Shown in pieces: positions 6,237 through 24,471 of a stretch of DNA of 24,471 bases; the stretch's first letter is position 1, and every line of letters starts with the position of its first letter. Origin of the DNA: a virus. The DNA lies in IMG/VR virus record IMGVR_UViG_3300025141_000717, positions 1-24,471 of that record; one strand, given 5' to 3'. Both the position numbers and the translations under genes were made by a program. The notes under the pieces are model-generated. The model had not been told where the DNA came from, made no database searches, and was given only the letters and a program-made list of their open reading frames with translations.

Positions 6237-6244
6237 TATAAATA
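6237..6244 (-). promoter_or_regulatory. TATTTATA element upstream of the gp32-like gene
   Basis: An exact TATTTATA on the coding strand, 43 nt before the ATG at 6193, is followed by an AT-rich leader. It is one of six exact copies in gaps between genes. It would serve as the promoter of the replication operon; the function is inferred from recurrence and position only. Confidence 0.4.
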
Positions 6245-7276: not shown

Positions 7277-7284
7277 TATAAATA
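7277..7284 (-). promoter_or_regulatory. TATTTATA element upstream of the 79-aa gene
   Basis: An exact copy (context GATATTTATATAAC) lies 12 nt before the ATG at 7264, in the only gap between the giant hub gene and the small gene pair. Confidence 0.4.
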
Positions 7285-20190: not shown

Positions 20191-20198
20191 TATAAATA
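20191..20198 (-). promoter_or_regulatory. TATTTATA element upstream of the tape-measure-like gene
   Basis: An exact copy lies 15 nt before ATG 20175, embedded in the inverted repeat AACTAT-TT-ATAGTT and touching the stop of the overlapping small ORF. It may allow a separate transcript for the tape measure. Confidence 0.4.
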
Positions 20199-21827: not shown

Positions 21828-21835
21828 TATAAATA
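21828..21835 (-). promoter_or_regulatory. TATTTATA element upstream of the tail tube gene
   Basis: An exact copy (context GATATATTTATAGATATAAT) lies 37 nt before ATG 21790. Together with the terminator at 21257-21282 it delimits the tail tube as a single-gene unit. Confidence 0.45.
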
Positions 21836-21857: not shown

Positions 21858-22721
21858 CTAGTTTAACTGTTTTAGTATTATTTTATTCATACCACCTTCT
21901 GAAGTGTCATAAACTACGAAGTCCACATCAGGGAATTCAATCTGTAAAACTTCTTCAATAAAGGGAACTATAGCATTTATGTTACCCAAATCATCGTCAC
22001 TAAACCCAATCGATAATTTATTATATTTTGTATTTACCATTTCAGAGGTTTTAGCTACTATTTTGGTAACATAATCCCTTAAAGCTATTTTTTTACTTTC
22101 TTCGGGACGTGACGCTAAACTATCCTCTACCCCAAACTTATCTATAAATTCAGTTGACGTCACTGGGTGGTACTCGTGAGAATCTAAATAAGTCTTTAAT
22201 ATAAGTTCTGGTGTTTTACCGTCTAATTCTGGTATTTGTTGTTGTATATTATCTATCATTTGAGCTAATTCTTCTTCATTAAATGTGTGGGAGATAACAA
22301 AATCCATACCTTTTCTTAGTGTTTCCGGTTTATGTCCACGAGCTGTTATTATTGATATTGGATTTCCGTAAATTAAAGCTTCTTTAAACTTATCAAATGA
22401 TGGGGCAAAAGACTTGGTATTTAGGGCTTCCTCTAAATCATTTATAAAGCCATCGTCATCTATAAAATTATCGAATGCTCCATCGTCTAATTTATAATTT
22501 TCATCATCCCTTATGGCAGCAAACTCCTCCGTTCCAACATTAATATTTTCCCAACCATCATTGGTTTTCTTTAACATCTTTATTGTAGTTGGCATAATCA
22601 TTATATTATCATCCCAATCGAAAGAATAAGCTCTAACATTTGATGTGTCGGCATTTTGTTCTTTTAATAGATTACTTATTTTAAATAATTGGTCTTTTGT
22701 TATTATAATATTTTTTACCAT
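21858..22721 (-). CDS. HAD-superfamily hydrolase-like protein
   Basis: Probable phosphatase-like enzyme of the HAD superfamily; substrate unknown. With start ATG 22721 it has 287 residues. Motif I is SFDWDDN (Asp35 nucleophile, Asp37 acid/base), motif II is SIITARGHKPET with the Thr, a Lys-containing helix follows, and motif IV is GFSDDDLGN near residue 245. A large cap/insertion (about 50-105) and an N-terminal helix (ITKDQLFKISNLLKEQ) precede and surround the core. A longer frame with TTG at 22734-22736 is open, but ATG 22721 fits better. A TATTTATA element ends only 4 nt before this ATG. Phage HADs often trim nucleic acid ends or nucleotides, as T4 Pnkp does; the role here is not inferable. 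It is transcribed away from the rightward lipoprotein gene, 56 nt apart. Confidence 0.68.
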   Translation of the reverse strand: MVKNIIITKDQLFKISNLLKEQNADTSNVRAYSFDWDDNIMIMPTTIKMLKKTNDGWENINVGTEEFAAIRDDENYKLDDGAFDNFIDDDGFINDLEEALNTKSFAPSFDKFKEALIYGNPISIITARGHKPETLRKGMDFVISHTFNEEELAQMIDNIQQQIPELDGKTPELILKTYLDSHEYHPVTSTEFIDKFGVEDSLASRPEESKKIALRDYVTKIVAKTSEMVNTKYNKLSIGFSDDDLGNINAIVPFIEEVLQIEFPDVDFVVYDTSEGGMNKIILKQLN

Positions 22722-22725
22722 ATAA

Positions 22726-22733
22726 TATAAATA
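22726..22733 (-). promoter_or_regulatory. TATTTATA element upstream of the HAD-like gene
   Basis: An exact copy lies 4 nt before ATG 22721. If it is a promoter, the mRNA would be nearly leaderless, or the real start codon would lie further downstream. Confidence 0.35.
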
Positions 22734-22742
22734 CAAATTAAT

Positions 22743-22773
22743 TTTGTTTATTCATATATTTTATTTATCTTTG
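22743..22773 (+). promoter_or_regulatory. Bacteroidetes-type housekeeping promoter (TTTG-N19-TATCTTTG)
   Basis: TTTG at 22743-22746 and TATCTTTG at 22766-22773 are separated by 19 nt, matching the established -33/-7 consensus TTTG/TAnnTTTG of the Bacteroidetes primary sigma factor. The ATG of the lipoprotein follows 4 nt after the box, so transcription would start at or very near the start codon (leaderless or nearly so). It implies expression by host polymerase without phage factors. Confidence 0.8.
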
Positions 22774-22777
22774 TAGT
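22763..22777 (+). repeat. Left arm of a 15-bp inverted repeat around the lipoprotein gene
   Basis: ATTTATCTTTGTAGT contains the -7 promoter box and ends at the base before the lipoprotein ATG. Its exact reverse complement lies at 23376-23390, 25 nt after the lipoprotein stop. Confidence 0.75.
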
Positions 22778-23350
22778 ATGAAAAATATTATAAAGCTATT
22801 ATGTGTTTTATTGTTGGTATCCTGTGAAACCGAACCACTATACATGCCTTGTACAACACAATACCCTACTACTCAAAACCCTACATCGTATGTAGATATT
22901 AATTTTCTAGATGGTTGTTGGAAATTACTTGGTGGTAAACTATATATGGAGAATCTAGAAACTGGTGAATCTACTGAAATGTTGCATTTTCAATATAGTG
23001 ATACTAGTAGTCTAAGATATAATGGAAGTATGTATGAATTTGAGGATATAATAAAAAAGGATACTGATTGGTGTTTTGATTTCCCTGTGGATGTTCCTGG
23101 GATGGGTTATTTTATTTTAAATGGTGATTCTTTGTATCCTTATGGTTTATCTGTTACATCTAATAACCTTACTATCACAGAGCCTTTAGTTGGTTCATAT
23201 TTGCTTTTAGGCGGTTCCTCACGCCCATTAGTGTATGAAATAATAAGTTTAGAAAATAAAATAGTTAATTTTTATGTTCAAGAAACTTACGAAAACATAG
23301 ATGGGTACAATTATAGATATTATTCCAAATTAAAATTTAAAAAATACTAA
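22778..23350 (+). CDS. Predicted lipoprotein of the rightward cassette
   Basis: Secreted lipoprotein of 190 residues, presumably in the host envelope. The N-terminus MKNIIKLLCVLLLVSC is a type II signal peptide with lipobox LVSC; Cys16 would be lipidated. The following ETE resembles acidic surface-export signals reported for Bacteroidetes lipoproteins, but the match is partial. The mature part is beta-rich with GCWKLLGGKLY near residue 46 and Cys pairs, resembling small lipocalin-like lipoproteins; I would not name a family. It is on the opposite strand to nearly all other genes and is preceded by a canonical Bacteroidetes promoter ending 4 nt before the ATG, so the mRNA is nearly leaderless. 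No downstream Met could serve. Superinfection exclusion or host-surface alteration is a plausible, unproven role. Confidence 0.82.
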   Translation: MKNIIKLLCVLLLVSCETEPLYMPCTTQYPTTQNPTSYVDINFLDGCWKLLGGKLYMENLETGESTEMLHFQYSDTSSLRYNGSMYEFEDIIKKDTDWCFDFPVDVPGMGYFILNGDSLYPYGLSVTSNNLTITEPLVGSYLLLGGSSRPLVYEIISLENKIVNFYVQETYENIDGYNYRYYSKLKFKKY

Positions 23351-23375
23351 TTAAAAATAACCCACCTCAAACGAA

Positions 23376-23390
23376 ACTACAAAGATAAAT
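23376..23390 (-). repeat. Right arm of the 15-bp inverted repeat
   Basis: The exact reverse complement of 22763-22777. Read leftward it gives TATCTTTG (23387-23380) with CTTG 21 nt upstream, a weaker promoter match that would run antisense through the lipoprotein gene. Confidence 0.75.
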
Positions 23391-23447
23391 TTTACGTATA
23401 TAATAATACAAGCCGACTGTTTAACCAACCAAATAAAATCAAATCAA

Positions 23448-24041
23448 ATGAAAAAAATCCTTACCATATTACTAACTTTAGTTTCCTTAACTTCATTTTC
23501 TCAATCTATATGGAGAAATACTGAGTTAGAGAAAGTAGTTTTTGACGAAATTAATATCCATAGACAAAGTGTGGGTTCAGATGCAGTGGTATGGGATGAT
23601 AATAATAGAACAGCTCTTCCTTATTCGGAACTATTAACAAGTAAAATAGAGGAGAATAACAAACAACGTCTAGTTCATTGTGTTTGTCAACCTGGTAGTG
23701 AAATTTTAATAGATGTACCAGCTGTAAATTACGATAACACACCTAAACCACATAAAGAGATTGCAGAGATGATGGTCTATTATTGGAATAGGTCTCCTAT
23801 GCATAAAACGTGTATGGAATATAATGGAGTTGTGAGAGCTTTTGTTGCTATTCAGATGTATGTGGATGACAAGGGAGTGACTAGAGCGTTAGCGGTAGTT
23901 CAATTTAGACAACCTATACAATATTATATTGATACCGGTTATGGTAAGGATGGTGAAAACCAAGATGCATTCACACCAATTCATGCAAAAACAAACAACC
24001 AAAATAAATTAAAAAACCCTTGGGTTTGGGTATTGAGGTAA
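23448..24041 (+). CDS. Secreted CAP/SCP-superfamily-like protein
   Basis: The N-terminus MKKILTILLTLVSLTSFSQS is a clear Sec signal peptide with a flavobacterial-type cleavage region (SFSQ). The mature protein (about 178 residues) has a CAP-like outline: EINIHRQSVGSDAVVWDD near 34-51 fits the first helix and 'hxLxwd' part, GSEILI (near 83) the GENI position, and YYWNRSPMHKTCM (about 111-123) the W-x-x-SPxH motif, followed by the strand AVVQF. The Cys pair HCVC is unusual. Assignment is moderate because the His/Glu cavity set is only partly visible. It follows the lipoprotein gene by 97 nt with no strong own promoter and is closed by a hairpin terminator, so both probably share a transcript. 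It acts outside the cytoplasm; the target is unknown. Confidence 0.65.
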   Translation: MKKILTILLTLVSLTSFSQSIWRNTELEKVVFDEINIHRQSVGSDAVVWDDNNRTALPYSELLTSKIEENNKQRLVHCVCQPGSEILIDVPAVNYDNTPKPHKEIAEMMVYYWNRSPMHKTCMEYNGVVRAFVAIQMYVDDKGVTRALAVVQFRQPIQYYIDTGYGKDGENQDAFTPIHAKTNNQNKLKNPWVWVLR

Positions 24042-24045
24042 AAAT

Positions 24046-24071
24046 AAAAAAGGACCGTGTGGTCCTTTTTT
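24046..24071. terminator. Bidirectional rho-independent terminator between convergent genes
   Basis: A hairpin with 11-bp arms (A-run plus GGACC, loop GTGT, GGTCC plus T-run) lies between the stop of the CAP-like gene (24041) and the stop of the leftward gene (24091). Both strands show a T-run after the stem, so it can end transcription from either side. Confidence 0.9.
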
Positions 24072-24090
24072 AATTATATATAAATATCTT

Positions 24091-24471
24091 TTATATTGAC
24101 TGAGATTGGCTTTTTTGTTTCGCAATCTTCTGGTCTTTTGTCAACTTATCCTTAACAACTGTTGTTGTTCTCTTTTCCTTACTTTTAAACCATTCAGATG
24201 GTGGCCATTTTTTCTTTTTAGAAATCACCTTTTTAGTTATTGAACTTTGGTCAAATTTAATGTATGCTTTTTTAATGTCTATTATATTTTCTGGGTACTG
24301 GGTGGTGGTGTTGCTATTATCCTTCGTCGTCTTGGATTTACTAATTACCTTCGTTGTCTTTTCGACCGTTCCTCCTTTAAGTACTTCTATTGTATCGTCT
24401 TCCATTGCCATTATCTCTAAATTTGCAAATTGGTTATCGTCTCCACTACCACCTATTTCATATACAAATTG
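24091..24471 (-). CDS. Unknown protein, C-terminal part (runs off right edge)
   Basis: The frame is open to the right edge, so the gene almost certainly starts outside; the ATG at 24409-24411 is only an internal Met. The visible 126 residues begin QFVYEIGGSGDDNQFANLEI, then MAMEDDTIEVLKGG, and become strongly basic and Lys/Ser/Thr-rich with KKKKWPPSEWFKSKEKR near residue 95 and a Gln/Ser tail. No family recognised. It converges on the CAP-like gene, with a shared hairpin terminator between them. In T4-like phages this side of the tail tube usually holds sheath or other structural genes, but the segment resembles none that I know. Confidence 0.6.
   Translation of the reverse strand, partial: QFVYEIGGSGDDNQFANLEIMAMEDDTIEVLKGGTVEKTTKVISKSKTTKDNSNTTTQYPENIIDIKKAYIKFDQSSITKKVISKKKKWPPSEWFKSKEKRTTTVVKDKLTKDQKIAKQKSQSQSI

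Follow-up and report, generated by a model that had tools for sequence, protein, structure and literature searches.

The stretch of DNA analysed here, referred to as the window, is a viral contig of 24,471 nucleotides (24.5 kb) that carries T4-like tail genes, with matches to a tail tube and to baseplate proteins, running leftward. A rightward unit composed of a promoter, a lipoprotein gene, a gene for a secreted protein and a terminator was located at 22743–24072 within this leftward tail region, and every credible gene outside the unit lies on the leftward strand. The features of the unit and its flanks are as follows.

21858–22722, minus strand: P0003, a gene conserved in T4-like Bacteroidota phages, used as the anchor of the comparison.
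22726–22733, minus strand: TATTTATA, a motif of the late-type leftward genes, placed back to back with the promoter of the cassette.
22743–22773, plus strand: promoter of the Bacteroidota −33/−7 type, TTTG-N19-TATCTTTG, kept in every one of the 35 relatives that have the site.
22778–23350, plus strand: lipoprotein gene (family A1), 190 aa, lipobox LVSC, with a barrel-like, beta-rich model.
23448–24041, plus strand: gene for a predicted secreted CAP-superfamily protein, 197 aa, Sec-type signal MKKILTILLTLVSLTSFSQ, assigned by a homology chain and a model.
24045–24072, plus strand: intrinsic terminator, the pattern of which fits both strands.
24091–24471, minus strand: neighbour gene on the far side, incomplete at the contig end.

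The rightward gene pair, the host-type promoter and the strong terminator that the original prediction had placed in this leftward window were all seen in the sequence. The terminator has a 12-bp stem and a 4-nt loop (−15.3 kcal/mol, z = −5.45). The export signals claimed for both products were also found, namely the lipobox LVSC in the 190-aa protein and a Sec-type signal in the 197-aa protein, as called by sequence pattern and hydropathy rather than by SignalP. Searches against RNA families and known defence families gave no match, and the leftward neighbour at 24091–24471 has no relatives among the loci searched. The −7 box recurs as a 10-bp copy (TATCTTTGTA) on the minus strand at 23378–23387, between the two genes and facing into the lipoprotein gene, which is within chance (0.16 expected per window). 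In addition, distant relatives of P0003 (31–33%) occur in uncultured huge phages of 634–735 kb (LR756502, LR745206, LR756501 and LR756504).

The promoter elements TTTG and TANNTTTG form the consensus of primary sigma factor promoters in Bacteroidota (PMC6847099). The consensus by itself is weak evidence, with three matches in the window against 1.9 expected, and the promoter call is strong because of its conservation, in all 35 sited relatives against none of the 82 others. The −7 box ends 4 nt ahead of the ATG at 22778, and in Flavobacterium johnsoniae transcription starts 4–5 nt past this box (PMC6847099), so that the transcript is predicted to begin at the ATG or within one nucleotide of it and to be leaderless. 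The leftward genes carry a different signal: TATTTATA was detected on the coding strand, no more than 60 bp from the start, in five of 18 leftward genes (6237–6244, 7277–7284, 20191–20198, 21828–21835 and 22726–22733), where 0.37 would be expected and none of 2000 shuffles reached this count. As an aside, the motif resembles a late-promoter element of these phages and is unlike that of T4, TATAAATA. Since the leftward genes carry this motif, the cassette promoter belongs to another class, and the slot is probably read early by the unmodified host polymerase, the label "early" being derived from the promoter class.

Relatives of the region were gathered through P0003 and through the tail tube gene, which gave 117 distinct sites with sufficient upstream sequence. 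Where P0003 is at least 55% identical, all 35 sites carry the promoter followed by one to three divergent genes, while below 55% the promoter was found at none of 82 sites and any divergent gene at only five. The other 77 distant relatives have no opposite-strand gene adjoining P0003, and in most of the distant relatives its upstream neighbour is the tail sheath gene or a small gene on the same strand. Presence and absence at 22743–24071, the comparison proposed by the original prediction, therefore separated occupied close relatives from mostly empty distant ones, and the simplest reading is a single origin of the slot in this clade, with its promoter retained since.

The contents of the slot vary behind this promoter. 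The lipoprotein family is present in 25 of the 35 islands, and a membrane protein of 77–83 aa, which is missing from the present window, is the commonest slot gene (26 of 35; for example, L166:4864–5100). The latter protein has two hydrophobic stretches and matches DUF420 weakly (E 0.0011, below the cut-off); its T4 Imm-like look is recorded as a lead only. Other islands hold small secreted proteins in which similarity to the lipoprotein was not detected. Ten of the 35 islands begin with a gene unrelated to the lipoprotein and have an unchanged promoter, and those that start with the membrane protein retain the promoter with a longer leader after it. Whichever gene comes first, the spacing on the P0003 side is mostly 42–48 bp, and the −7 box and the TAGT or TATT ahead of the ATG are nearly constant among the islands. 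The anatomy of the unit, its insertion, the conservation of its promoter and the swapping of its contents can all be read from the sequences.

The cassette had been interpreted as a phage moron, and this reading stood up to the comparison. A self-contained insertion on the opposite strand, with a host-type promoter and a terminator of its own, is absent from the more distant relatives, and both the lipoprotein and CAP genes also turn up at other places in the genomes of other phages, again with this type of promoter ahead of them. The cassette is no rare stray: the slot is fixed in its own clade, and the lipoprotein itself has a fixed place here across most of that clade.

The lipoprotein shares 44–70% identity with its relatives, with 39 invariant columns in 19 sequences, and its median dN/dS of 0.19 (31 pairs) points to purifying selection. 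It was also found once outside the slot, in L184, with a promoter of its own (TTTG-N19-TATATTTG). Direct searches of viral and genome collections found no relatives of either the lipoprotein or the CAP protein; the relatives of both were reached through the neighbour P0003, the family alignment and the promoter pattern, and by scanning related records with PF00188. The AF2 model of the lipoprotein is beta-rich and barrel-like (pLDDT 79.6), and its fold search returned nothing significant (best E 0.0048 among viral models and 0.037 in the PDB). The lipocalin-like family suggested by the original prediction was accordingly dropped, its one lipocalin-like viral model reaching E 0.015. Neither a sequence link nor a significant fold link to the known exclusion proteins Llp, Cor and Ltp was found, the Cor match of one relative (E 0.12) covering the signal region only. 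The protein carries part of the Bacteroidota surface-export signal (LES), C-X-K-(D/E)2: the family has C-x-K-E-P and the window protein C-E-T-E-P, and after the lipobox K stands at +3 in 18 of 19 members and an acidic residue at +4 in 17 of 19, with the second acid absent.

It is very unlikely that these genes aid lysis or virion maturation, for example as a spanin-like lipoprotein or through late remodelling of the envelope. The location in the tail block, a weak PHROG match (E 0.02) between the lipoprotein and an endolysin family and the two hydrophobic stretches of the commonest other slot gene, which could be holin-like, would suit such a role; but the cassette lies on the opposite strand behind its own host-type promoter, the late-type motif is missing from the coding strand of its genes, and the contents of the slot are freely swapped, with the 77 distant relatives having no divergent gene at all.

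The second protein (P0002) has no match in Pfam (PF00188 included), PHROGs or NCBIfam, a PHROG match at E 0.13 being confined to the signal region. Its membership of the CAP superfamily is therefore claimed through a homology chain and the fold, not through a Pfam score. A phage homologue, L315, is 31% identical to it over 154 aa (pairwise E 3e-20) and shares the stretches HCxCQPGSEIL and WxxSPMHK; L315, which may be frameshifted at the signal peptide, scores 18.3 bits on PF00188, below the cut-off of 21.1, while other phage members reach 41.2. Residues N36, R39, G43, H77, E85, S116 and H119 of the window protein match the phage CAP set. In an alignment with 14 phage CAP proteins R39, H77, E85, S116 and H119 are kept, H77 and H119 being invariant in the 15 sequences and E85 present in 14; the second Glu of the classical CAP tetrad was not identified in this alignment. 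The structural model matches CAP structures of the PR-1/GAPR-1/CRISP type almost exclusively (best E 1.1e-5, probability 1.00), a fold match that is not independent of the residue alignment, as the model's input alignment included confirmed CAP proteins. We take the predicted alpha-beta-alpha CAP fold as settled well enough, given the L315 homology, the aligned residues and the model matches. The CAP-like character proposed at the outset was thus borne out by L315 and the model, while of the two checks suggested for it the Pfam profile stayed silent and the structure prediction agreed. No close CAP relative was found in isolated phages.

The original prediction had regarded the lipoprotein and the CAP protein as an undescribed pair. 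As one two-part system, the former might anchor or guide the latter at the outer membrane. The two genes share a strand and a single predicted transcript in the window, and unrelated lipoprotein-type genes adjoin CAP genes in three other phages (L327, L328 and L320), the 126-aa lipoprotein gene of L327 overlapping its CAP gene by 4 nt. A CAP gene is nevertheless present in none of the 25 islands of relatives that hold the lipoprotein, the sole CAP gene in a relative's island (L103/L165, passing the Pfam cut-off) follows a different first gene, and most CAP genes stand alone, so that the pairing did not survive the comparison and a joint system appears quite unlikely. The CAP matches in the L183 and L225 islands were discounted, being small secreted proteins that passed a loose cut-off, probably on the strength of their signal peptides.

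CAP genes recur beyond the slot. Of 47 related phage records searched with PF00188, 11 held the 13 matches that exceeded the cut-off, and several further matches fell short of it. The regions retrieved around the CAP genes, 14 in all, provided 20 such genes for examination. A Sec-type signal is predicted in 19 of the 20, against 33 of 321 other genes, and in 16 of the 20 the nearest non-exported neighbour on either side runs antiparallel to the CAP gene, while of genes in general 45 of 313 are antiparallel to both of their neighbours. The box TAT[AC]TTTG lies within 120 bp upstream of 13 of the 20 CAP genes, against 26 of 321 others, a figure inflated because part of the CAP records were picked by promoter pattern (both CAP genes of L298 were matched directly by it); this bias touches the figures for export and orientation less. 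Such a box ends 3–6 nt ahead of the ATG in seven of the 20. Thioredoxin-like genes were also observed beside CAP genes (L298:6672–9454, L319 and L324). We tentatively suggest that T4-like Bacteroidota phages may harbour a large repertoire of exported effectors, expressed early and so far undescribed, in which CAP proteins recur. Each would be inserted antiparallel to the late genes around it, behind almost the same, apparently leaderless host promoter, and they could target the host surface, either to keep competitors out or to remodel the infected cell in some other way. In the open papers searched, the only mention of a CAP protein in a phage was an annotation note, on a LysM+CAP protein of Bacillus phage Stills with an unknown role (PMC4541274), and no functional study came up.

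Taken together, the reading we lean towards, with modest confidence, is that of an insertion slot with a fixed early-class promoter and swappable exported proteins that alter the envelope, most probably for superinfection exclusion. The slot would sit in the tail-gene block of a T4-like Bacteroidota phage clade, its host-type promoter directed opposite to the late genes, with one to three interchangeable exported-protein genes behind it and, in the window, a strong terminator closing the unit; here the clade's usual lipoprotein would be joined by a CAP gene where most relatives have a small membrane or secreted protein. The early timing, the export, the location and the function are inferred. 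Host RNA polymerase would transcribe the slot early in infection, the lipoprotein would be anchored in the outer membrane, the CAP protein would pass to the periplasm or outside, and each alone may alter the envelope of the infected cell. Nearly all slot products look exported or membrane-bound, and for a virulent phage the most straightforward purpose of exporting proteins early is to alter the envelope of the cell it infects; an envelope change of some kind is probable. Blocking adsorption or injection by further phages is the most probable use, although taken by itself it is held to be somewhat less likely than not. Llp of T5 attaches to the receptor FhuA on its periplasmic side and prevents further infection (PMC9586334), and Ltp of Streptococcus phages mediates exclusion from the cell surface (PMC3952083). 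The CAP fold, on the other side, carries many unrelated functions, which counts against exclusion.

The exported proteins could instead act on the outside world or on host physiology, for example if the CAP protein has a surface protein or a lipid as its cleavage target or ligand and so changes adhesion or conjugation. The closest parallel in function for a CAP protein, recorded as a lead only, is PrgA. This CAP-containing surface-exclusion protein of an Enterococcus conjugative plasmid is thought to act by cleaving the adhesin PrgB (PMC10588982), and its CAP structure (6z9k) is among the matches of the window model (E 0.011). The sequence link between them is at the superfamily level only, and PrgA is far larger and wall-anchored; we regard this alternative as unlikely.

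Morons and lipoprotein-based exclusion are already known, and the best-known morons belong to temperate phages. The slot resembles a moron in having, at the sequence level, its own promoter and terminator, and in its opposite strand, its position between genes that adjoin in relatives and its predicted envelope-directed products; it differs in having one conserved promoter with rotating contents, in T4-like Bacteroidota phages. In T4-type phages, PeSL cassettes are described, in the citing paper, as promoter early stem-loop elements through which genes are shuffled (Arbiol 2010 and Comeau 2014, as cited in PMC4503421). As there described, they share with the slot a T4-like phage and an early-type promoter and stem-loop linked to accessory-gene exchange, but in the window the promoter stands 1.3 kb from the stem-loop, with the genes between them, and the two form no composite motif; a PeSL cassette in the strict sense was rejected. 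Llp of T5, Cor and Ltp are likewise small phage-encoded lipoproteins exported to the envelope, Llp being expressed early, whereas the present lipoprotein has 190 aa and is predicted to be beta-rich (Llp is much smaller), with no detected sequence or fold link. In the open papers searched, no description was found of the slot with its conserved promoter, or of the repeated occurrence of CAP genes in it and in similar insertions. The slot is a credible candidate source of new viral ways to remodel the infected-cell surface and, if our reading of it is true, one promoter string beside one conserved gene would serve as a handle for collecting exported effectors of poorly studied phages. The window protein shares its model fold, key residues and predicted secretion with the CAP superfamily (PR-1, GAPR-1, CRISP, bacterial YkwD and Enterococcus PrgA) and differs in being phage-encoded, short and single-domain, with a Pfam score under the threshold; on the same reading, this superfamily, with its known members in venoms, in plant defence and in surface exclusion, would also be a recurrent phage tool.
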